The notes below the pieces were generated by a model. It saw only the letters and a list, made by a program, of their open reading frames with translations, searched no databases and had not been told where the DNA came from. Positions 23,878 to 64,000 of a DNA stretch of 64,000 bases are shown one piece after another (position 1 is the stretch's first letter; the number at the start of each line of letters is the position of its first letter). Both the position numbers and the translations under genes were made by a program. Source of the stretch: Piper betle (taxonomy: Eukaryota; Streptophyta; Magnoliopsida; Piperales; Piperaceae); contig JAURVB010010162.1 of the NCBI GenBank assembly GCA_033002965.1, forward strand, positions 1 through 64,000. Reading direction: 5' to 3'.

Positions 23878-26800
23878 TGTAACACCCCAATCCAGTTTAT
23901 TCTCAACCTGGATGCCCTAAACCGATTAAGTTGGCTAACCCAAGACCTAAACGGCTATGACATAACCCTCTCGACGTCTCAAGATGGAGCATGCCGCTAA
24001 TGCACAAACAATATATAAATAAGATGCAAAACCCTGGCAGGATACTACGTGAATGTTATGATGATAGCCACACACAAAATAATTTACATAGCAACAAAAT
24101 TTGCAAAAATCCTGGAATACAACGGACATAGTCTCCCCTAAAAGTGCAATAAGGGGACGACTTGTTAAAATACGGCACAGAATAGTATATATATAAAACA
24201 ATAATTTATATCTCAATAGAATTCAAATCATCCACACATATTGCAATTGGCATCTCGCCCACCTACAATTCATGCTCATCATGCTTTTGTTCATTTTCAA
24301 CACAACATAGATGACCATTCCTGTACATCAGAACATTTCCAAAACATTTCTAAGAAAATTCATACATTTCTAAGAAAAAGACCTACAAGTCTCATAGCTC
24401 ATGCATATGTACATAACCATGTATATCACCAAGCATCATTCAACCCACATCATATCTTAGGCAAAAGTCAACTTGGAGCCAGGCATGTGTGTGCAATGCA
24501 AACACTAATCCTTCATCAAGGCCAGCATACACTATTCATCGTCCTCACCTATATATAGTAGAAAAACGACAGCAACAGGTGTCACTGGTCCGGAAATAAC
24601 TAATATCAAGCTGAAACATGAGAGTTAACTCTCATGGAAAGCAAACAATTATATATCTTCCTCATGAACTCTCATAGGGCTACTAAAGTGGAGCCATTGA
24701 GCAGCTGACTCAACAACATCCTGATCTATCTAGTAATGTGCCGCTCAGTACTCTCAGTACTTCGCGTAAAACTTCTATCCTAAGCCCTTTCCAAACCTCC
24801 ATATTACTCCTAGCCTTGAGCACGAAGGCTGAGCACTCTCAGGCAGTCGCCTTTAGCACCATTTGAACCACAAGTCTCATAGCTCATGCATATGTACACA
24901 ACCATGTATATCACCAAGCATCATTCAACCCACATCATATCTTACGCAAAAGTCAACGTGGCGCCAGGCATGTGTGTGAAATGCAAGCGCAAATCCTTCG
25001 TCAAGGCCGGCATACACGATTCATCGTCCTCATCTAAAAATAGTAGAAAAACGTCAACAACGGTTGTCACTGGTCCAAAAATAACTAATATCAAACTGAA
25101 ATATGAGAGCAAACTTTCATGGAAACCAAACAATTATATATCTTCCTCAATAACTCATATGGCTACTAAAGAGGAGCCATTGAGTAGCTGAGTCAACAGT
25201 ATCCTGATCTATTTGGTACTGTGCCGCTCTCGGCACTTCTTTTTCAGTACTTCGCATAAAACTTTTATCCTAAGCCCTCTCTAAACCTCCATATTTCTCC
25301 TGGCCTTGAGCACGAAGGCCAAGCACTCTCAGGCAGTCGCCTTTAGTACCCTTTGAACTACAAGTCCAAACATGCTCTGTACTAAACAATACCCGTAAAC
25401 CTCCACGTTTTCTGGGTTTGAGGAACTCAAACGAGGAGTTGCCAGGATCCCTCGGGAATGGAACAGTTCGCTGGCACTAATCTAGAGCCCGCTTTGATTG
25501 TCACGACATCTGCTCATGGTACGTGCAGTCGGTTTCTCCATCTCTCGTCTCACTAAAAACTCGATAAAACTATTTTTAGGGCTGGGTAGGGATTTATTAT
25601 AATAGCCCGGAAGGTAACTTGAGGTGGATCTTATTTTCGAAAACAAGCTCGAGGGATCTCATCATCGAGCTTTATTAATTCCGAAAACAATCGACCAAGT
25701 GACCCGTTCTAGGTGAGGTCCAATAAATCTTCCACCTGACATGTCCTACGATCATTAAATCAAACCACCGATAGAGTAGAGCGACAAAACCTGAGAAGGG
25801 TGTCCTAACGGACCTGTCAGAGGCTCCAAGCGTAGTCTTGTGCCTAGACGGCGAGCTCCTGCAACGAACCTACATGAATATAACTATTTACTAACGTCCA
25901 TACATATATGATGCACGCCTATATAACTAATATATCCACATTTATACATGAATCTAATCAAACATGACAATTATCTCAACAATCACACAAAATCTCTAAT
26001 TGCCAAGCAAGTTAATAATTTTATGATTTCATACGTTACATATTACCTAGTACTTTTAATTCCAATTTCAAAACATACCTATTCTAATTAAGTGACAATG
26101 GTTTAATCAATTTAATCTGTTTAACTTAATACTAGCATGCAAAACCTAATTTATACAAATTCATAAATTAACTAGTTAGTAAGCATTTAATTAACTATTC
26201 AATGGTTTACTAACAATTTCATTAGTGCACATTTTCATCACACAACACAATCTATGCTAATCATATCATGTTTATCATAATTCACGATTAATTAAACTAA
26301 AATCATGAAGTAAATAAAATTAATTCCAATATGCTACCATGACCACAGAATGTATATAATAATTCTAAAAAAGAAGGAAAAACCACCTCGCGATCGGCGC
26401 TGAAATCCCTGCCGACGGACGAAAGCGGTGAAGGAAAACCGTCAGTTTTTGGCGACTGTGCCAGCAGTTTTCTGGCAGTTCCCATGGTGTTCTGGCGATT
26501 GCTCGGCGGACCAATCAGAAGTAAGGGTTAGGCCCTTCTCGGCGAGCTTGACCCAATGGTGGTGACGACAAGGGCAGCCACTGTGGTGATGGCCACCGAT
26601 GGCGGCTTGCAGTGCGGTCGGGGCGGTCGGTTGCTCCGATTAGACCCACGGCTGTCCTCAACGATGGCGCTAGGTAAGGGGAAAGGTAGGGGAAGTTGAG
26701 GGAAGAGCTTCGACGTCACGGTGGCGGTAGTCTGGCAGAGACGGCGGCGGAATCACGTCGGGAATGGCCATGAAATCGTGGGCGATTTCCGGCGTAGCGA

Positions 26801-27396
26801 CGGCTGGACGGTGGCCTTGCGTAGTTGAGGCGGCAAGGCAATGGCACGACCGGGCTAGGGTGGCATCGATCAGCAGCGAGGTGGCATCAGTGGCGGTGGT
26901 GACAACCTTAAGGGCGGCGGTGAAGACATCCGGTTTGTGGGAGGGAGATGAGAAATATAGGGTGGCAAACTTGTAAATAGAACTTGACTCAACACCGGCT
27001 CGAGTCAAGAATAATAACTAACTCGGAATAAATGCCAGAAAAATTGGGAAAAATCTCATAAAATCAAACAAAATAACACAACATCCAAATGACATGCCGT
27101 ATAACTAATAACCTACCCGAAGACCATCTAACGCGTCCTAATGCGTTATTCGGCCGAAACTAATTCTATGGTCACAACATGAAGAAAAGATAAAATCATC
27201 TGTATACTCTCATATCTACTAATAACTCAGTCTCCTGATGCATATCTGATGCTATCATTGATATGAACCCTCATAGCACATGCAGACGGTCAGCCTCGGC
27301 CCCGCACACGTGTTCTAAAAGCTGAACTGACTCGAACCATGGTCAAACCAACCAGCTAACGACTATAAAACCCTAACTCGAGTCGTGAGTTTTACA
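23878..27396 (-). repeat. 3' LTR of element A, with an internal 485-bp duplication
   Basis: A 3,519-bp LTR with minus-strand ends TGTAAAACTC and GGTGTTACA. It is longer than its partner because 24,385-24,869 is duplicated in tandem as 24,870-25,359. Without that copy it would be about 3,034 bp, matching the partner. The GC-rich block at about 26,380-26,960 gives several spurious long frames. Confidence 0.93.
24385..25359. repeat. 485-bp tandem duplication within the LTR of A
   Basis: Unit 1 starts at 24,385 and unit 2 at 24,870, both with ACAAGTCTCATAGCTCATGC. The word ACAAGTC also occurs at 25,360, right after unit 2. The partner LTR (39,115-42,096) has the segment once, so the duplication arose after insertion of A. 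The 7-bp word at each boundary suggests slippage or unequal exchange at microhomology. The two units have diverged by a few percent. Confidence 0.92.
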
Positions 27397-34031: not shown

Positions 34032-34273
34032 AACCCTCGGCATATGTTCTCTGAGAGCCAACTCTTGGCATATGTTCTCTGATGTCAAAAGTGGTATCAG
34101 AGCTAACCCTTGGTTGATTAAGATGGTAGATGCGTTACAGGTTACATGTGTGCCGAAGCTGCTCCAAGCTGTTCCGACAGGTATTTTTCTGTTTTAATGT
34201 TTTTGATTACAGATTTTCTTACGAGTCGGTGGTGTGACATGGTGAACAGATCAGATCAGGAGTTTGTAGCAGG

Positions 34274-36166
34274 ATGGTGACACAGACCCGCCGGACACAG
34301 ATTAGGACCCCATCGCCTCCAGTAGCCAGACAGGACAGTCCTAGCCCTGTTCACAGTGACGCCGCCTCCAGTCAACCTAGGACTGCCATGCCACCAGTAG
34401 AGGTCAGTGTGCCAGTTTCAGCTAGCCGACGTGGTGAGAGCCATCGTCGAGACAGTCGCCACGACCGAGATAGTCGTCGAGACCGAGATAGTCGTCGGGA
34501 CCGAGATAGTCGCCGGGACCGAGACAGTGGTCGTGACAGTTACTGCACCAGAAGTAGTCGACAGGAGAGAGACGCAGCGATCACCAGGTTGGCGGAAGCT
34601 CAGATACAAATGCTGCACAGTCAGGAAGAATTTAGGAGACAAATGCTGCAAGACCAAGAGGAATTCAGGAGAGAGCTCAGACAGATAGCCCTTTCTGTGG
34701 CCAGAACTGAGAAGAGACCAGCAGTGGGTGAAGAGGCACCGGGAGAGCCAGCAGTTTCCATAGACCCCGTACCGCCGCCTCCTCCTCCACCGCTGCAACA
34801 GAGGGCTACTCCAACGACAGCCCCCTTATTTGCCCCACTTCAGGCGGGGATGAGACCGGACATCAGTGGAACCGCAGCAGTAGGTAGCGGGCAGACTGCA
34901 GGCGGAAGTGGAGCTGCAAGATTTGATGGTATACCAGCAGGTACGGGACCACAAATTCCTCGGTATGAGCAAGGAGAAGGATCGAACAGATCAGTGGATA
35001 CGAGGAAATTGGGACTGTGGCAGTACGAGAAGTTCGTGAAGAATGGTGGACGACCGTTCTTTGGAAAGTTGGACGCGGAAGAGGCATTCTTGTGGATATC
35101 GTCAGCCATAGGTGTGTTTGACACTATGGCATGCCCGATGGAGCACCGAGTGCGCATCATCACAGGAGCATTCCAGGACGAAGCCAGGATATGGTGGAGT
35201 TCGGTCCAGAATTCTATATTTGCCCATCGTCAGCCCCAGGACATCACATGGGAGGAATTTAGGGCGGAATTCGATGGAAAGTATTTCCCGCCAAACATCA
35301 GGAAGAGAAAGGAACGAGAATTCCAGACGCTGAGGCAGGGACCCATGACGGTGGTACAATACGAGACTAGGTTTAGAGCTCTGGAGAGATTTGCACCAGA
35401 CTTGGTGTCCACCGAAGAAAGAAGGATAGAGCGTTTTTACGAAGGCCTCCATCACGAGATCAGGATGGCCTATTTGGATAGGAAGTTCGCTACTTTTGGT
35501 GATGTTGTGAGAGCTGCAGGCGAGGCAGAACGAGTTATAGCTGCTAGACCTCGCCAGGATGTTGACCAGAGGCAGCAACATTCGAGGCCGTATCAGCCAG
35601 AGCAGGGAGAACAGCAGAGACATCGGTCAGATGCACCAGTTGCCATGAGGGCTATGGATGCCCAAGTTCAGGGCTACAGAGCACCCTTCTGTCAGAATTG
35701 CCGACGTCGTCATGGAGGTGAGTGCAGAGCAGGCACAGACGGATGCTACAGATGCGGTCAGCAAGGACATAGAGCTGTAGAGTGCAGAGTAGGCACAGAC
35801 GTATGCTATAGTTGCGGTCAACCAGGGCATAGAGCCGCAACTTGTCCAACTGGCCAGACCCAACAGGTGACGCTCCCAGCACCACCGCAGAGACTTGCAC
35901 TCCCAGCTCCCCAGCAACAACCACAGCAGACAGGCAGAGACCAACAGCCACTGAGGCAGCAGCAGAGAGGACTTGTAGCTATCATGACAGGACAAGAACA
36001 GCAAGCCTTGGATCAGAGAGGAATGCAAACAACACCACCACCAGGACCATCCATTTCGGTACCACCATGGACAGCTGGGATGGACACAGCCACGATTGCT
36101 GAAGCACTGGAGGATACGACAAATGTGACAGGTACGCACGCGTCTCACCTCGGATTTCACATTTAG
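34274..36166 (+). CDS. gag: Gag polyprotein of element B, 630 codons, intact
   Basis: Structural protein that would form virus-like particles in the cytoplasm and package element RNA. Residues 1-50 are Ser/Pro-rich. Residues 59-89 are Arg/Asp/Ser repeats (DRDSRR type) encoded by 18-bp tandem repeats. About 105-140 is a Gln/Glu-rich, probably coiled-coil segment (QMLHSQEEFRRQMLQDQEEF). About 245-420 is the retrotransposon gag domain with YEKFVKNGGRPFFG, DEARIWWSSV and FPPNIRKRKEREFQTLRQG. The nucleocapsid end has an atypical CQNC...H...C finger, then two CCHC knuckles near residues 491 and 511 (CYRCGQQGHRAVEC, CYSCGQPGHRAATC). A Gln/Pro-rich tail follows. In full-length relatives the sequence after VTGT continues into protease; here it ends after about 10 more codons, at the junction of the pol deletion. 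The start at 34,274 is supported by the parallel start in A. Confidence 0.93.
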   Translation: MVTQTRRTQIRTPSPPVARQDSPSPVHSDAASSQPRTAMPPVEVSVPVSASRRGESHRRDSRHDRDSRRDRDSRRDRDSRRDRDSGRDSYCTRSSRQERDAAITRLAEAQIQMLHSQEEFRRQMLQDQEEFRRELRQIALSVARTEKRPAVGEEAPGEPAVSIDPVPPPPPPPLQQRATPTTAPLFAPLQAGMRPDISGTAAVGSGQTAGGSGAARFDGIPAGTGPQIPRYEQGEGSNRSVDTRKLGLWQYEKFVKNGGRPFFGKLDAEEAFLWISSAIGVFDTMACPMEHRVRIITGAFQDEARIWWSSVQNSIFAHRQPQDITWEEFRAEFDGKYFPPNIRKRKEREFQTLRQGPMTVVQYETRFRALERFAPDLVSTEERRIERFYEGLHHEIRMAYLDRKFATFGDVVRAAGEAERVIAARPRQDVDQRQQHSRPYQPEQGEQQRHRSDAPVAMRAMDAQVQGYRAPFCQNCRRRHGGECRAGTDGCYRCGQQGHRAVECRVGTDVCYSCGQPGHRAATCPTGQTQQVTLPAPPQRLALPAPQQQPQQTGRDQQPLRQQQRGLVAIMTGQEQQALDQRGMQTTPPPGPSISVPPWTAGMDTATIAEALEDTTNVTGTHASHLGFHI

Positions 36167-39114: not shown

Positions 39115-42096
39115 TGTAACACCCCAATCCGGTTTATTCCCAACCCGCACCAGAACTGTTACAAAGGATCGAACTACTCATAAACCGATTAAGTTGGCTG
39201 ACCCAAAACCTAAACGGCTACGACATAACCCTCTCGACGTCTCAAGATGGAGCACGCCGCTAATGCGCAAACAATATATGAATAAGATGCAAAACCCTAG
39301 CATGATACTACGTGAATGTTATGATGATAGCCACACACAAAATAATTTAAATAGCAACAAAATTTCCAAAATCCTGAAATAAGACGGACAGAATCTCCCC
39401 TAAAAGTGCAATAAGGGGACAACCTGTTAAAATACGGCACAATATAGTATATATATAAAACAATAATTTATATCGCAATAGAATTCAAATCATCCACACA
39501 TATTGTAATTGGCATCTCGCCCACTTGCAATTCATGCTCATCATGTTTTTGTTCATTTTCAACTCAACATAGCTGATCATTCCTGGACATTAGAACATTT
39601 CCAAAACATTTCTAAGAAAATTCATACATTTCTAAGAAAAAGACCTACAAGTCTCATAGCTCATGCATATGTACACAACCATGTATATCACCAAGCATCA
39701 TTCAACCCACATCATATCTTACGCAAAAGTCGACGTGGCGCCAGGCATGTGTGTGCAATGCAAGCGCTAGTCCTTCGTCAAGGCCGGCATACACCATTCA
39801 TCATCCTCACCTACATATAGTAGAAAAACGTCAGCAACGGGTGTCACTGGTCCGAAAATAACTAATATCAAACTGGAACATGACAGCAAACTCTCATGGA
39901 AAGCAAGCAATTATATATCTTCCTCAAGAACTCTCATAGGGCTACTAAAGAGGAGCCATTGAGCAGCTGACTCAACAGCATCCTGATCTATCTGGTACTG
40001 TGCCGCTCTCGGCACTTCTTTTTCAGTACTTCGCGTAAAACTTTTATCCTAAGCCCTCTCCAAACCTCCATATTACTCCTGGCCTTGAGCACGTAGGCCG
40101 AGTACTCTCAGGCAGTCGCCTTTAGTACCCTTTGAACCACAAGTCCGGACATGCGCTGTACTAAACAGTACCCGTAAACCTCCACGTTCTCCGGGTGTGA
40201 GGAACTCAAACGCGGAGTTGTCAGGATCCCTCGGGAATGGAACAATCCGCTGGCACTAATCCAGAGCCCGCTTTGACTGTCACGGCATCCGCTCATGGTA
40301 CGTGCAGTCGGTTTCTCCATCTCTCATCTCACTGAAAACTCGATAAAACTATTTATAGGGCTGGGTCGGGATTTATTATAATAGGCCCGAAGGCAACTTG
40401 AGGTGGATCTTATTTTCGAAAACAAGCTCGAGGGATCTCATCCTCGACGGGTTATTAATCCCGAAAACAATCGACCAGATGACCCGTGTTAGGTGGGGTC
40501 TGATAAATCATCCACCTGACACGTTCTACAATCAATAAATCAAATCACCGATAGAGTAGAGCGATAAAACCTGAGAAGCGTGTCCTAACGGACCTGTCAG
40601 AAGCTCCAAGCGTAGTCTCGTGCCTAGACGGCGAGCTCCTGCAACGAACCTACATGAACATAACTATTTACTAACGCCCATACATATATGATGCACGCCT
40701 ATATAACTAATATATCCACATTCATACATGAATCTAATCAAACATGACAATTATCTCAACAATCACACTAAATCTCTAATTGTCAAGCAAGTTAATAATT
40801 TTATGATTTCATACGTTACTTATTACCTAGCACTTTTAATTCCAATTTCAAAACATACCTATTCTAATTAGGTGACAATGGTTTAATCAATTTAATCTGT
40901 TTAACTTAATACTAGCATGCAAAACCTAATTCATGCAAATTCATAAATTAACTCAGTTAACAAGCATTTAATTAACTATTCAATGGTTTACTAACAATTT
41001 CATTAGTGAGCATTTACATCACACAACACAATCTACGCTAATCATAACATGTTTATCATAATTCACGATTAATTAAACTAAAATCATGAAGTTAATAAAA
41101 TTAATTCCAATATGCTACCATGACCACAACATGTATGTAATAATTCTAAAGAAAAAGGAAGAACCACCTCGCGATCGGCGCTGAAATCGTTGCCGACGGA
41201 CGAAGGCGGTGAAGGCGAGCCGGCAGTTTTCTGGGCACTGTGCCGGCGGTTTCTAGCAATTCTGTGGTTTTCCAGCGACTACTCCGGCGGAGCAATCGGA
41301 GGTAAGGGTTAGCACCGTCTCGGCGAGCTTGACCCAATGGTGGTGACGACAAGGGCAGCCGTGGCGGCAATGGCCACCGAACGATGGCGTCGAGTGTGGT
41401 CGGGGCGGTCGGTCGCTCCAATCAGACCCACAGCCGGCCTCGACGGCGGAGCTAGGTAAGGGGGAAAGGTAGGGGAAGTCGAGGGAAGAGCTTCGACGTC
41501 ATAGCAGCAGTGGTCCAGTGCAGATGGCGGCGGAATCATGTCGGGAACGGCCGTGAAATAGTGGGCGATGTCCGGCGTCGTGACGGCTGGACGGCGGCCG
41601 GGCATGGTCGAGGCGGCAAAGGCCACGGCCGAGCTGGCGGTGGCGAGGTGGCAACGTCTTAAGGGCAGCGGCAGTGAAGACGTCCGGTTTGTGGAAGGGA
41701 GATGAGAAATATAGGAGTGGCAAACTTGTAATTAGAACTTGACTCGACACCGGCTCGAGTCAAGAATAATAACTAACTCGGAATAAATCCCAAAAAAATT
41801 GGGAAAAATCACATAAAATCAAACAAAACAACACAATATCCAAATGACATGCATTGTAACTAATAACATGCCCGAACACCATCTAATGTGTCCTAATGCG
41901 TTATTCGGCCTAAACTAATTCTACGGTCACAACATGAAAAAAAGATTCGATCATCTGTATACTCTCATATCTACTGATAACTCAGTTTGCTGATGCGTAT
42001 CTGACGCTATCATCGATACTTGGGTATACATGAACCCCCATAGCATGTCCACACGGTTGGCCTTGGCCCGACACACGTGTTCTAAAAGCTGAACTC
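39115..42096 (-). repeat. 5' LTR of element A, start truncated
   Basis: Aligns with 23,878-27,320, without the 485-bp duplication. The match ends near 42,095 (GAACT), so about 75 bp of the LTR start, and with it the right target duplication, are missing. The GC-rich block is at 41,160-41,690. Confidence 0.92.
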
Positions 42097-42700
42097 ACGC
42101 CGAAGGCCGGCTTGTGCTCCGCTGCCCGCCTACTCAACTAGATTCGCCAGACGTAGAGCCCGCCAACTCAATTAGATCTACCAGACCGCTGCTGCCAAAA
42201 TTCTTCCAAATTTAAAGAGGCATAGAATTGGGGGAATGAGGATGAATGCCAAACTTGAAGTGCTGAGATAGCAAGAGGAGTGTGAGGATGATGGCCAACA
42301 ACTGTGAGGGCTCGACAATGGCGACGGTGATGTTGGGGCATAGGGGGAGATGGGGGGTGGCTAGCTCCAGAGGGTTATTTATTTTCGACTGCCGGGCTCG
42401 ACAAAAAACTCAGACAATGACTAGATCATACAATTTTCGTCCAAACAAATTTTGAACAGACGTGGACATAGCTTGCACGACGTCCATCCAAACAGATGCC
42501 CACCACTAGAGAAGATGGAGAGGATGTCAAATGGCAGGTAGGGAGAAAGTTATAACGGGTGCTTCGGGCAGCGTCTGTGCTTCAAAGTCAGCTTGTGGGA
42601 CCCACCTCAAAATTCTAGATGGTTCACTTAGCTAAGGCGCGCAACCATTCATTGGTTGTAAAAATTATCCCCAAGAAAAATAAACAAAAAAAATTGAAAA
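42097..42700. other. Unassigned stretch right of element A
   Basis: Mixed-composition DNA with no reading frame or repeat partner that I can support. It separates truncated A from the peptide gene. Confidence 0.4.
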
Positions 42701-51706: not shown

Positions 51707-53226
51707 AGTAAAACCCCAGCTATGGGTTAGGGTTTACACACTTGTAGTTTTGCCTAGTTTGGGTGAGTCTTAAGTCGGTTCGAGTGAGTTTGAGCCACAA
51801 ACTAATTTTTAGAGCATGAGTATGGGTCTAGATGGTTATATGAATATGTTATGGAGGCTAAGTATGCCTGACATGCAGATAATAGCTTCAGTCATGCTAC
51901 AATAAAGCATGAGTTATTAGTGTTTACATGAGGTATACAAAATTTTTTTATTTGTGTTAGTTAAAGTTTTAGGGCTAGATATAGGTCATTGTGGTGTTTA
52001 ATATATGTTTGGGACATTCAGGGTATCTTATTTTCATGCATCTTAAAGATTTGGACAACCAAATTGCCCTTGTGGGCCCAACTTGATTTGAATCATTGAT
52101 TTTTAATTGATTGAGTTGAGAGTTTGGAAGCCTATTTATCCTTCTTGCCTCGATTCCCACTTATATAGTCAATTTTAGGCTTTTAGTCAGTTTTTACTTT
52201 GGACAGCCTCGATCCAAGCTTGTTGCCCATAAGTGGGCCCCACTGGGCCCACTAGTTGCTAGATGGTTTAGAATGTGCCATGTGGCAAGATCTAGACTGT
52301 TCAATAAAAATTGAAATAAAAAACTTAGCTTTTCTCCCTCCTATTTCAGATTTGCACCTTACTGTCGCCGCCATTTGGACTCACCACCAGCAAGTCTCAA
52401 GCCAGAGGGCCAGTCCGATTGTGACTGACTTGAGGCCAGCTAACAACAAGGACCCACCACCTAGACCAGTGCCACCATGTTTGCCTCCGATTGGGCATTT
52501 TTGGTTGTTGGTTTCCTACTGCATCAGTGAGCCACATTTGATAAGACCAACCACGCAGATAGATTCCTTTCGTCAAGACCAATATATTGAGACCATCAAC
52601 GACCACTATTGTGGTCATAATCGCCACTAACGACGTCGCCAAACCCAATGGCAATTCTACCCCTTTCTGGCCATTTTTTGGCTAGTAGCCGACAGAACCT
52701 TGCCAATCACCACCTCAACATCCTCTGTCATTCGAGACAAGCGGCAGCCTCAGTTGAGCCCCCGTTGGCGATTTTCGGACACAAACACTGCTGTCCAATT
52801 ACCCTCGTTTGCATTTGCCAACCTAGTCCTGTTTACTTACCTGCCAACCTGTCTGCCAGTGCGTGCAAGTGTTCGTGTCCATTAGTTCAGACTAACCCAG
52901 CCGACCCAACCCACCACTTACTTAACCCACACCAAGTTGACTTAGCCTGACTCAGTTCCATTCAGCACATTTTCACCCCATTTTCGGGAATTTTACATCC
53001 TTTTTTTGTAATTCGAAACACCTTATATTAGTTTAGATTCATATTCACATGATATAACATGTTTAGATGTTATAAATATTTTTCTCTATATATTACTTAT
53101 TTTATTTAGTTATTTATTCATTCATTCATTTTTTTATTAATATATTTATTAATTATAATGCATGTTTATGAGATTATTTATTAATATTAATGATATATTT
53201 ACTTATTAATATTAATATTATTAATT

Positions 53227-53257
<31 letters not shown>

Positions 53258-54027
53258 CTATTTGTTCATTTTGTGAATACTATTATTTAATTGTATTTAA
53301 TTATGTATTCTTATATTGGATAACTATGATATTATTATTATTCCTGATTAATCAATATTAACTATTTGTTTAAATATTTATTTATTTATTTATCAAATTA
53401 TTATTATATATATATATTTAATTATTTAATGGTTACTAACATGAGCATATGTAATATTTACTTGTGTTGGCCATGTATTTATTTAGTATAATTATATTAT
53501 TCTTTTATGATTAAAGTGTTATTTATTTTTATGAATTTATTATCTATCTATTTATCCATGAGTTTATTTATTTATTTATTATTTTTTTATTAGTCATTTT
53601 TAGTATTATGTCTTCATTTACATGTTAGATATTTAGTTGTAGGTTTGTTTAGCACAGTTTTCTTTATTGCGATGTTATTGATTATGTTAGCACACACAAC
53701 GATCATCCATCATATAAAAATGTCAGTATTTTACTTATGAGTGGGTTCAATGTAAGTTTCAAAGTCCAAGCTTGTATTCGATGAGAAGTAATGCTAAGAG
53801 CTTGGACTACATGTCCGTTAGGACTCTTCTCATCTTTATTACTATAGTTTATTATGGATTTGATTTTGAGATCGTAGGATGTGTTAAGTGGCTATTTTGT
53901 GGAACCTCATTTAACACAGACTATTTAGACGTATTTTACTTCCGGGATAAAAACCCTTGAGGATGAGATCCCTCAAGTTGTTTTCAAACTAAGATCCACA
54001 AAAAGTTGCTTTTGGGCCTACTAAATA
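51707..54027 (+). mobile_element. LTR J, 3' part missing
   Basis: It starts AGTAAAACCCC, a one-base decay of TGTAAAACCCC, and follows the architecture of the K and B LTRs: a GC-rich block at 52,330-52,930, an AT-rich block with TA and ATTT runs at 53,090-53,600, and the GGATGAGATCCCTC(A/G)AG block near 53,960. It stops at GGGCCTACTAAATA, exactly where B has its TATA motif, and is replaced by minus-strand LTR L. Confidence 0.8.
53232..53258. repeat. TA microsatellite
   Basis: A run of TA dinucleotides in the AT-rich part of LTR J. Confidence 0.9.
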
Positions 54028-55837: not shown

Positions 55838-58800
55838 TGTAAAACCCCATTTTTTGGGTTAGGGTTTTACCCTTTTTAGTTTTGTACAATTTGGGTAGTC
55901 TCGAGTCTATTCGAGTGAGTTCGAACCAGAACATTATTAAGAATATAAGTATGAGGCTTAGAAGGCCGTATGAGCATGTTACAGTGGATAGGTATGCCCG
56001 GCATGCAAATGATAAGAGCATGAGTTTTTTGTGTGTACAGAGGTATACAGCGTTTGTATGTGTTAGCCTAGATTATAGGCCTAGGTTTAGGCCATTGCAG
56101 CGTTTAGTATTCGTTTGGGATTTTCTGGATATTTCATTTGCATGCAACATAGGAATTTCGAATCACTAGATATTGCCCATGTGGTCCCAACTTGATCGAG
56201 TTTAGGGTTCGAGGCCCATTTACACTTTTTGCTTCGATTCCCACCTATAGAGTCAACTTTAGGACTCGAGTCAGTTTTGACTTTGGACGGTCTCAATCTA
56301 AATTTTCCATCCATATGTATATTACACTTACCCATAGGTGACCCCACTAGGCTACGAGTTGTTAGATGTCTGCATCGTGCTACATGATCTAAGCCATCCA
56401 CTCAGCGATAAATTCACGCACCTAGCTGTCTTTACTCCCATTTTCAGAGTTTCACCCCTATGCCGCCACCACTTCGGCTCGCCACCGGTGACACCCGGCC
56501 CTCCTCCGGCCACCGCATCGGTATGGCTGTGACCATCTCGTGGCCAGCTAGCAGTCCGTACCCATCATCACCACCGGACCAGCCGTCGAAGGTGGTTTCA
56601 GATTCATTTTTGCCGCCGCCACCACCCCCTCAGGCCATTTTCCGGTGCTGGCGAGTGTCCTTCGAGGAAGCCAACCATCCCGATGGCTTCCCCTCCCCAA
56701 GATCCACATTTTAAAGCAACCCGCGACCATCGCAGTGGCCAAGATTGCCGTTGCCGCACCCAGCGGCAACCGCCACTTTTGTTGCTGTTTTCTGGCCAGC
56801 CCGTAGCCAGACTCCGCTGGTTGTCACCACATCACTTCTGCCATCATGCCATCTTTCCATCATGACCGACAGCACCCTCTGTCGCACTGCCGTGGCCATT
56901 CTCTGGCGACGGACACCGCCGCTCGTTTGTTCAGCGTGTTTACCCACATGCCCAAGACCGCATCAGCCAACTGCGATCTCGACCTCCAGCCCGCGCCACC
57001 TCTACCTAGTCATGCCCGAGTTTGCCAGGTTATGTCCATGTCGTGTCCATCAACCTAGCCAACAGCCCATTTTTCAGTAAACCCCAGATCGGGTTGGTTC
57101 AGTACTTTCGATTTTGGTCTGGTTCAGCTTGGTTCGCCCTGGTTCAGCTCATTTTCGAACGTTTTTCGACCGTTTTCGGTAATTTGAGAATTTATATATT
57201 AGTTTAAAATCATATTCGCATGATTTAGCATGATTGGATGTTATGATAATTTTCCTTATTTATTGTTTTATTTATTTATTTAATTAATTATTTATTCATT
57301 ATTATTTATTTATTTTTATTTATATGTTTATCATTTATAATGTATGTTTACATGATTATTTGTTATTAATAATATTATATGGGTAAAGGTTTCCTGCGCA
57401 AGAGGCAGGAAACCCTTACCTACGCTAGGACAATCTGGGCCGTCCTTATGATCGGACGGCCCAAATTTGATGAAAAAATATTTTCCACCATCCCCCTCCT
57501 TCGCCAACGGCCGGGATCCGGTCGGGCGGGGGGTGGGCGAGGCGGGGCGAGGGCGGCATGGGGGGCGGAGGAGAGTGGTAGGCGGCGGGTAGGAGGTGGG
57601 CGGGGTGGGGGTCCCTCCCCTGCCACGGCGGCGGCGCTCCGCCTCCGCCCCTCCATATCATCTGGACCGTCCTTCTAATTGGACGGTCCAGATCAAATTA
57701 AAATTATTTTTAAAAAAACTAATAAATCTGGGCCGTCCTTGTAATCGGACGGCCCAGAATAAAAGGTGGCACAGATGCGCTTCCCTGCCTCTGGCGCACG
57801 GAAGCGCCCCTCATATTATATTTACTTATTAATATTAGTCTTCTTATGTTATTAAATTTTATATATTTATTTATCTATTTATATGTTCTCGTGTATGTTA
57901 TTATTTACTTGTATTTAATTACGTAACTTTGATATTATTATTATTCATTTTTAATTAAAATTAAATAATTAATTATTTACTTATTTATAGAATGATTATG
58001 TATTTATTTATTTAATTATTTATATGATTACTAACACGAGTATATATAATATTTACTGGTGTTTAGCAATTTACGTATATAATATATGATATTATCATTT
58101 CATGATTAGAGTATTGATTATTTTCATGTATTTATTATCTATCTATTTATTCATGATTGTATGTATTTATTATTTATTATTTGGTATTAGTTATTCTCAT
58201 TATTATATCTCGATTTACGTGTTGTGTGTTTATTGGTATGCATTTTTAGTATAGTCTTTTTATTATGATGTATTGATGATATGAGCACACACTACAAGCA
58301 TGCATCATATAGGGATATTAGTATTTTACTTAGTCATGGATTTTAATGTAGGCTTCAAGTCTGAGCTCGTCATAGATGTGAAGTATGCTTGGAGCTTGGA
58401 CCATAAGTCTGTAGGACTCTCTCCCTCTCTACTTGACTCATTGAGTGTCGAGTTTAATTGTGTTTTATACATAGGACAGCATTAGTGGCGTTTTATTGCA
58501 TCCCTCCGATGTCGAGCCATTTAGATGTCTTTTCTAGGCATGCTTAATAATACTACAAGGATGAGATCCCTTGTTGCTTTTCGAACATAAGCACTAAAAA
58601 TATATGATATAAGCCTCTTTCCTAAGCATGTTATATAAGTTCGTGCATTTTTATGGATTTCACAAAAAGAGAGTCAGCGGTATGGAGATATATATGAATC
58701 GCACTAGTACTCCTTCAAATCATGTGGTAGTGCGGTGTATGAAGGTATTGCGTAATGCAGCACATTTCTGGAATATGTGGCACTAACTTAACTGTTCCTT

Positions 58801-59322
58801 TTGCCATTGGAGTACCTAGCGGGTGATATGGAAGGTGTGAGGGCATAAGCGTTGTCTATATGTACGAATATGATTATGAGCCGTGCACGCGAGCTGGCAA
58901 TTGCTTAAGTATGTTTGCTTACTGCACAGTGTCAGGCTATTTTAGAGTTTTATAAGTTTTCATGGGTAATGGAATACCCATTCGCTAGACTGTATAAGTT
59001 ATTTTTGGACCAGTAACATTTGTTATTGATGGTTTTCATATAATATATGTAGGTCATGTAAATCCTAAGTTGACTTTGGTGGAAGGACAGATAAACGATA
59101 CACACACTTGAGCTCAACACAATATTTACTTTCTTGCATTTATTTATATTTGATGTGTTTTGATATTTATTAGACAATGTCTTCCATTCTCATGACACCA
59201 AGAGGGTTATTTTCATCTATTTTATCGATCGAGTCTTATTGACCAACAATATTAAACATGACTTGACTTGATCGTAACATTTCTGATCTGGTTCTTAGGT
59301 GAACCAAAATTGGGGTGTTACA
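55838..59322 (+). repeat. 5' LTR of element K, carrying a MITE
   Basis: A 3,485-bp LTR with ends TGTAAAACCCC and GGTGTTACA; about 3,044 bp without the MITE and its duplication. Landmarks are a GC-rich block at 56,450-57,070, AT-rich runs at 57,180-58,200 and the hairpin at 59,013-59,026. The part after the MITE aligns with LTR C in reverse orientation. Confidence 0.9.
57381..57812. mobile_element. 432-bp Mutator-type MITE in the LTR of K
   Basis: Flanked by the 9-bp duplication ATATTATAT (57,372-57,380 and 57,813-57,821). The 3' LTR of the same element gives the empty site: at about 63,950-63,975 ATATTATAT occurs once and runs straight into TTACTTATT. The left end GGGTAAAGGTTTCCTGCGCA and the inverted right end GAGGGGCGCTTCCGTGCGCC continue into a shared AGAGGCAGG core. 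They form imperfect inverted repeats of about 30 bp, and each end is itself a small foldback. Inside are three palindromes at about 57,434-57,472, 57,660-57,692 and 57,727-57,757, all of the type CTGG(G/A)CCGTCC-spacer-GGACGG(C/T)CCAG. There is no transposase. The 9-bp duplication points to Mutator-like elements. Confidence 0.92.
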
Positions 59323-63229: not shown

Positions 63230-64000
63230 AATTTTGCTGCCGCTGCTACCCTTTCGGGCCATTTTCTAGCACCGATGAGTGTTCTTCGAGGAAGCTCACC
63301 ATCCCGATGGCAGCCCCCTCCTTGAGATCCAAATTTTGAAGCCACCCACGACCATCGTCGTGGCCGAGATTGCCGTCGCCGGTGTTGCCGCACCTGACGG
63401 ACTCTGCCAGTTGTCAGTACATCACCTCCACCATCACACCCTCTTTCGATCATGACTGACGACAGCCTTTGTCCCGCTTCCCTGGCCGTTCTTCGGTAAC
63501 GGGCACTGCCGCCCCCTGTTCGCCCCGTTTACCCACATTCCCGCGACCGAGTCAGCCATCTGCGACCGCGACCGCTAGCCCGCGACTACGTCCGCCTGGT
63601 CATGACCAAGTTGCCAGCCCATGTCCATGTTCGTGTCCATCATCCTAGCTAACCCAGCCTATTTTTCAGTTAACCCAGACCGGGTTGGTTCAGCACTTTT
63701 GATTTTGGTCTGGTTTTGCTTGGTTTGGTCCAGTTCATCCTGTTTCGACCGCATCTCGACCATTTTGAATAATTCGATGACTTCTATATTAGTTTAGAAG
63801 CATATTCACATTGACATAGCAGATTGGATGTTATGATAATTTTCCTTATTTATTGTTTAATTTAATTATTTATTTATTCATTATTATTTGTTTATTTTTA
63901 TTTATATGTTTGTCGTATATGATATATGTTTACATGATTATTTGTTATTAATAATATTATATTTACTTATTAATATTAGTCTTATTATGTTATTAAATTG
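63230..64000 (+). repeat. Partial 3' LTR of element K
   Basis: Aligns with 56,605-57,380 and 57,822 onward of the 5' LTR and lacks the MITE. The junction with the interior at 63,225-63,232 shows the shared word ATTTTGC, also found (with one extra T) at 56,606-56,614. The LTR continues beyond the window. Confidence 0.88.

Follow-up and report, generated by a model that had tools for sequence, protein, structure and literature searches.

The 432-bp insert carried by the window (the whole stretch of 64,000 nucleotides that was analysed) is very probably a shortened, non-autonomous member of the Mutator superfamily (MULE), one of a multicopy family that is presumably moved in trans by a MULE-type transposase with a preference for (TA)n tracts and whose hairpin tips tend to keep their fold. 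These tips are 41-nt stem-loops of at least seven types that have a core in common and differ in the outer stem, and it seems to be the fold of the outer tip, rather than its letters, that is kept. Several plant relatives of Mutator are known to carry foldback ends, and to our knowledge it is open whether the foldback itself matters there. Because several end types in one genome differ by paired changes, these natural variants let the role of the fold in transposition be tested, and the window copy adds a case in which an internally deleted element has inserted outside (TA)n and its empty site is preserved.

The insert, which lies in an old, AT-rich long-terminal-repeat-like sequence of a plant genome, is confirmed as genuine with the borders given in Table 1: the insertion and its borders are settled because uninserted copies read through the point. 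It is flanked on both sides by ATATTATAT, and among the duplication lengths tried, from 3 to 13, matches were obtained at 4 and 9 only; chance identity between 9-mer pairs from the AT-rich flanks amounted to 165 of 200,000 (about 1 in 1200). The 9-bp duplication is by itself good, though not decisive, evidence for insertion. The closest repeat copy without the insert, 83% identical, spans the insertion point with a single ATATTATAT and shows identity for about 25 bases to the left and about 20 to the right of the duplication; its alignment extends 37 query bases beyond the junction, where the end of the window stops it. Further copies that span the insertion point, at 52972-53624 and, on the minus strand, at 1505-921, 10338-9705 and 49257-48541, are 70-76% identical and thus more divergent. 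For a minus-strand copy, the left-flank match stops at 1302 and the right-flank match starts at 1310, an overlap of exactly 9 bases. The perfect duplication, the exact borders and the built-in empty site described in the first-pass annotation are therefore upheld. One statement of that annotation goes further than the data: with 83% identity, other copies at 70-76% and a window that stops at 64000, the empty site is at most a candidate for the paired 3' LTR of this element.

Table 1. Coordinates of the insert, its parts, its flanks and the empty site in the window.
Feature	Positions	Strand	Remark
Left copy of the target-site duplication, ATATTATAT	57372..57380	.	once in empty site
Entire insert (432 bp), internally deleted member of a non-autonomous Mutator-like family	57381..57812	+	
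Left terminal stem-loop, end type T1	57381..57421	+	15/17 in-register positions Watson-Crick paired
Internal palindrome 1, TCTGGGCCGTCC N8 GGACGGCCCAAA	57434..57465	+	
GC-rich core, 79% G+C	57486..57655	+	no Pfam match in two reading frames crossing the core
Overlapping G-quadruplex-type motifs inside the core	57524..57565	+	
Internal-deletion junction	57611..57612	.	361-550 bp more here in 15 full copies
Internal palindrome 2, TCTGGACCGTCC N8 GGACGGTCCAGA	57661..57692	+	
Internal palindrome 3, TCTGGGCCGTCC N8 GGACGGCCCAGA	57727..57758	+	
Right terminal stem-loop, end type T2	57772..57812	-	read from the outer end inwards
Right copy of the target-site duplication	57813..57821	.	9/9 match to left copy
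Related repeat copy without insertion (empty site)	63570..63999	+	left-flank match to 63962

Both ends of the insert fold back on themselves, as had been annotated: each terminal hairpin beats 1000 of 1000 shuffles, and the right end, when read inwards, adopts the register of the left one (a 17-position stem). Compared with each other, the two 41-nt ends are identical at 24 of 41 positions, with a poor match over the outermost 12 bp, and the terminal inverted repeat test gave a local score of 32 against a shuffle maximum of 28 (1000 shuffles). The half-sites of the internal palindromes, six with at most one mismatch, compare with 0.20 expected by chance. The first-pass count of three palindromes thus stands, as does the GC-rich core, but the letters assigned to the palindromes need correction: the arms of the middle one are CTGGACCGTCC and GGACGGTCCAG, a paired G-C to A-T change setting it apart from the other two, and the first ends in A, not G. 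The internal hairpins have predicted stems of 10-13 bp. The fold of the whole element, which consists mainly of local hairpins, beats 100 of 100 shuffles in either form (z -9.0 for DNA, z -8.5 for RNA). Besides the element core, the strongest G-quadruplex-type score of the window is at 42333-42360.

The element is multicopy in the host assembly (527,147,134 bases in 11,211 contigs), where the search, in which 40 places out of 1126 candidates were scored, returned at least 71 matching stretches; further copies with the same ends, which the first-pass annotation had named as a check, are thus present. Most copies align as two halves, corresponding to positions 1-231 and 232-432 of the element, with extra sequence between them. 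Because 15 full copies (786-976 bp) hold extra sequence at this junction, the window copy is an internal-deletion derivative. In the missing part, some full-length copies contain a further large palindrome, for example at L013:1046-1142, with 41-nt arms that are 98% complementary. In the initial label of a Mutator-type MITE, the Mutator-type part is supported by the 9-bp duplications at four non-TA elements, and the description changes to an internal-deletion copy of a family of 0.8-1.0 kb that mostly inserts in (TA)n. The window copy has MITE properties, being 432 bp long, of high copy number and without a Pfam match in the two frames across the core; its parents reach 976 bp, an unusual length for such elements. 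With regard to Pack-MULEs, the body is GC-rich, and the two frames of the window copy that cross the core lack a Pfam match. At 11 of 429 sites, the window copy departs from the letter that most of the other 15 aligned copies have (K2P 0.026), and 8 of these 11 differences are C-to-T or G-to-A; at a plant substitution rate of 1.3e-8 per site and year, this corresponds, roughly, to an age of two million years. With up to three mismatches allowed, the T1 core has 172 matches in the genome and the T4 hairpin 152, compared with 0 for each of the reversed control patterns. Neither the palindrome scan of viral contigs and prokaryote genome contigs nor the search of plasmid sequences produced a match; three 18-mer matches in viral contigs were only 18-19 bases long and were dropped as chance.

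Most members of the family occupy TA microsatellites. Among the copies for which both ends could be placed, 16 of 18 lie in or against (TA)n, and under a strict rule (a TA stretch of 8 bp or more, no farther than 3 bp from the end) 45 of 61 ends adjoin a TA tract, compared with 165 of 63977 positions of the window. Of the 16 ends that fail the strict rule, 8 belong to the four elements at non-TA sites; the remaining 8 have neighbouring TA tracts that narrowly miss the criterion. Several elements stand side by side, with TA tracts joining them (L016, L017, L068 and L081). The length of the duplication is not exactly measurable for copies inside (TA)n, so the informative cases are the four elements outside such tracts: the window copy, L022 (TTATTGTAA) and L048 (TTATTTTTA), each with a 9/9 match, and L025 with 8/9.

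These duplications support the assignment of the element to the non-autonomous members of the Mutator superfamily. The ends also qualify as terminal inverted repeats, by the identity between them given above, and each terminus folds on itself, T5 excepted. Profile searches with PF10551 (MULE), in which 150 of 1143 candidate places were scored, detected open frames of up to 838 aa, and intact MULE frames of this size make a source of transposase in trans plausible. An autonomous Mutator-like partner, that is, a transposase-bearing element with these ends, was not found among the 150 of 1143 MULE candidates covered by this partial search. The hairpin core is absent from ten MULE loci (L070-L079), which span 1.8-3.3 kb and are possibly too short to include element ends. 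When the listed T1, T4 and MULE places were compared by eye, contig C1182 alone had a MULE match within 10 kb, located 2.2 kb outside the element. Many MULE matches lie in open frames of 700-838 aa, for example C4403:20203-20487 and C6953:1909-2193, and several of the matches are close (about 1 kb or less) to the start of a contig, a pattern that would arise if the assembly breaks at recent MULE copies.

In addition to T1 and T2 of the window copy, the end types T3, T4, T4b, T5, T6, T6b and T7 were identified, all 41 nt long and in the same register. Their near-constant core consists of TTYCCTGC, a 7-nt loop and GCAGGRAA (as a search string, TTYCCTGCGCMAGAGGCAGGRAA), and the outer stem comprises pairs 1-9, where the letters vary widely and complementarity tends to persist. 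The types occur in several pairings within single elements, namely T1+T2, T1+T4, T1+T6, T1+T1 (L067), T5+T3, and T4 with T7 (L081). Across the nine end sequences, there are 93 Watson-Crick double changes, compared with 26.1 on average and 66 at most in 5000 shuffles and with 4 to 23 in slid registers; without the near-duplicates T4b and T6b, the count is 56, and shuffles give 16.2 on average and 46 at most. As the end sequences are related, these shuffles overstate independence. Stem pair 9-33 appears as all four Watson-Crick types (GC, CG, AT and TA). For 68 distinct ends, the covariation score reached 0.308 in register; shuffles gave 0.172, with none of 500 as high, and slid registers no more than 0.130. 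Two of the five measures in this test, the numbers of pairs with double changes and of pair types, were no higher than in shuffles. Taken alone, the two ends of the window copy show weak compensation, with 1904 of 200,000 and 15,679 of 100,000 simulations as good.

Two alignments of ends were used: A1 holds 58 of 69 places, 7 duplicates and 4 ends with indels or a shifted register having been left out and the T6 row having been brought into register, and A2 consists of A1 minus one duplicate plus 13 of 17 further ends, of which the remaining 4 were also duplicates. The nine-sequence comparison alone includes the two T7 copies. Over 67 in-register ends, with three T6 rows left out, 78 stem pairs have changed within the end types; 1 of them is compensated, 33 are G-T and 44 are broken (an earlier count that included register-shifted copies gave 0 of 67). 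The single compensated change, from C-G to G-C at pair 6-36 in T4b, is common to L065 and three other loci, so that T4b is part of a lineage that has spread. For the internal palindromes, the corresponding figure is 4 compensated among 109 changed pairs. Inserted copies therefore decay freely, with pairing kept mainly along the lineages that spread. T5, with 8 of 17 stem positions paired, pairs poorly (T3, T6 and T6b have 12 of 17), which counts against a universal requirement for the stem; either the stem is dispensable in some lineages or T5 depends on its partner end.

The main rival to selection for the fold is a mutational origin of the stem complementarity: at the birth of a new end type, template switching or snap-back repair (quasi-palindrome correction) would have copied the letters of one arm into the other, and transposition would then have amplified the product. 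Rewriting of an arm would yield just this pattern of paired changes, other palindromes abound in the parent copies, and the compensated T4b variant, at its four loci, looks as if made once and then copied; however, ongoing correction is nearly absent both within end types and in the internal palindromes, and we regard this origin as a serious contender that is, nonetheless, somewhat improbable. Under another alternative, the hairpins act solely as dyads for protein binding: their arms would be read as double-stranded half-sites by a dimeric protein, either a transposase or a host factor, and shifts in the specificity of this protein would drive joint changes of the arms. The constant core, an inverted pair of half-sites, fits such a dyad, but elements with T1+T2, T1+T4 and T1+T6 would need one transposase that accepts both arms, and the four Watson-Crick types at pair 9-33 also speak against the dyad-only reading, which we consider unlikely. 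Preservation of the insert as a small-RNA or microRNA precursor is much less probable still. The predicted RNA fold is strong, and MITEs can be sources of small RNAs according to the accessible text of one report (PMC12595863); against this, the stems of the internal hairpins, at 10-13 bp, leave the RNA-precursor idea of the first pass without support, copies lose stem pairs freely, and no Rfam match at the gathering threshold was detected in the window. Finally, a one-off rearrangement or chance palindrome-rich insert might have been invoked because no second copy of the element was found within the 64-kb window, but it is ruled out by the genome-wide, multicopy family with the same borders in the host assembly.

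According to the preferred explanation, that of a non-autonomous MULE mobilised in trans, the element would have entered the AT-rich long-terminal-repeat-like sequence by cut-and-paste insertion with a 9-bp duplication, and a MULE-type transposase with a (TA)n preference would move the members of the family. The constant core would serve as a sequence-specific recognition site, present twice in inverted orientation. The data on the stems suggest that the transposition machinery meets the outer stem as an extruded hairpin, a cruciform or an RNA fold, and we infer that this is why the fold is kept. Because one element can carry two different outer arms, one transposase is unlikely to read the letters of the outer arm; what is read may thus be the sequence of the constant core and the shape of the outer arm. 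A eukaryotic cut-and-paste transposon with ends recognised partly as folded hairpins, in which the core is specific, the outermost stem is read by shape and the end types are interchangeable, is a speculative and rather doubtful extension of this scheme. Bacterial transposases of the IS200/IS605 kind recognise hairpins, and hairpin-read ends, if real, would follow a logic nearer to that of such transposases than to that of classical terminal inverted repeats (TIRs).

By the descriptions in the accessible text of the respective reports, the class to which the element belongs is known, namely, microsatellite-targeting Mutator MITEs of the MuTAnT, Ac-mMITE and SaTar kind: the insertions are mostly in (TA)n, and some adjacent elements have TA tracts between them. 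MuTAnT of Medicago truncatula comprises mostly non-autonomous Mutator-like elements that target (TA)n with 9-nt duplications, with a 292-bp type element, near-identical TIRs of 144 bp and a related autonomous element (PMC4486113). The present family resembles MuTAnT in targeting and duplication length, in TIRs composed of fold-back modules and in G-rich tips, but differs in its 41-nt hairpins of at least seven kinds, their several pairings and the GC-rich bodies of 0.8-1.0 kb, with no autonomous partner found in the partial search; the MuTAnT TIR mask as printed, GGGGTTTGCTAGAACA, also differs from the ends described here (PMC4486113). The pineapple elements Ac-mMITE-1 and Ac-mMITE-2 likewise target (TA)n, form clustered adjacent insertions and have common TIR tips, and outside microsatellites they produce 9/10-bp duplications, with no autonomous element found in that study; compared by description only, they differ in size (510-570 and 210-270 bp) and TIR length (140-180 and 40-70 bp) (PMC8449440). 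SaTar elements of guayule, rice, sorghum and citrus are mostly non-autonomous MULEs in microsatellites, with sizes into the kilobase range; as here, intact elements form modular arrays via microsatellite tracts, and some families have 9-10 bp duplications elsewhere, whereas the words hairpin and palindrom- have 0 occurrences in the main text of that report (PMC5907723). Tm1 of root-knot nematodes has foldback-like composite TIRs and mostly 9-bp duplications but, unlike the present ends, its TIRs are largely tandem repeats of 13-15 bp, and no target consensus was seen (PMC3169594); FARE and Tnr8 are named beside Tm1, via citations, as close systems. MULEs with multiple TIRs, as described in the accessible text, also have extra TIR copies at their ends, mostly tandem and long (PMC3310237), whereas each end here is one short inverted pair. 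The less ordinary part is the set of hairpin end types with compensating changes, in several pairings: text searches with short strings of 11 to 15 letters from the ends and the palindromes matched no plant paper, and a literature search, with subscription papers and supplements outside its reach, returned no report of these ends or of compensatory change in MULE end hairpins.

Much of the window (1-64000) aligns with other parts of itself, as diverged copies of long, LTR-like repeats that occur in both orientations; 57813-59130, for example, aligns with 1310-10 at 77%, and 39647-42098 with 24870-27331 at 89%. An open frame at 34238-36163 (642 codons) has matches to retrotransposon gag and to a zinc knuckle, and one 95% relative in the protein collection. 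Two members of the family, L025 and L050 (3.8 kb), were considered as autonomous elements and rejected, being family members with nested LTR-type inserts of about 2.98 kb (approximately L025:1437-4430 and L050:1013-3989). These inserts are 86% alike, look like solo LTRs (TG...CA) and are flanked by 5-bp duplications, CCACC and GCGGT, as read by eye. They resemble the LTR-like repeats of the window at 24.5-42 kb and 53.8-55.6 kb, and the two kinds of element thus nest in each other.
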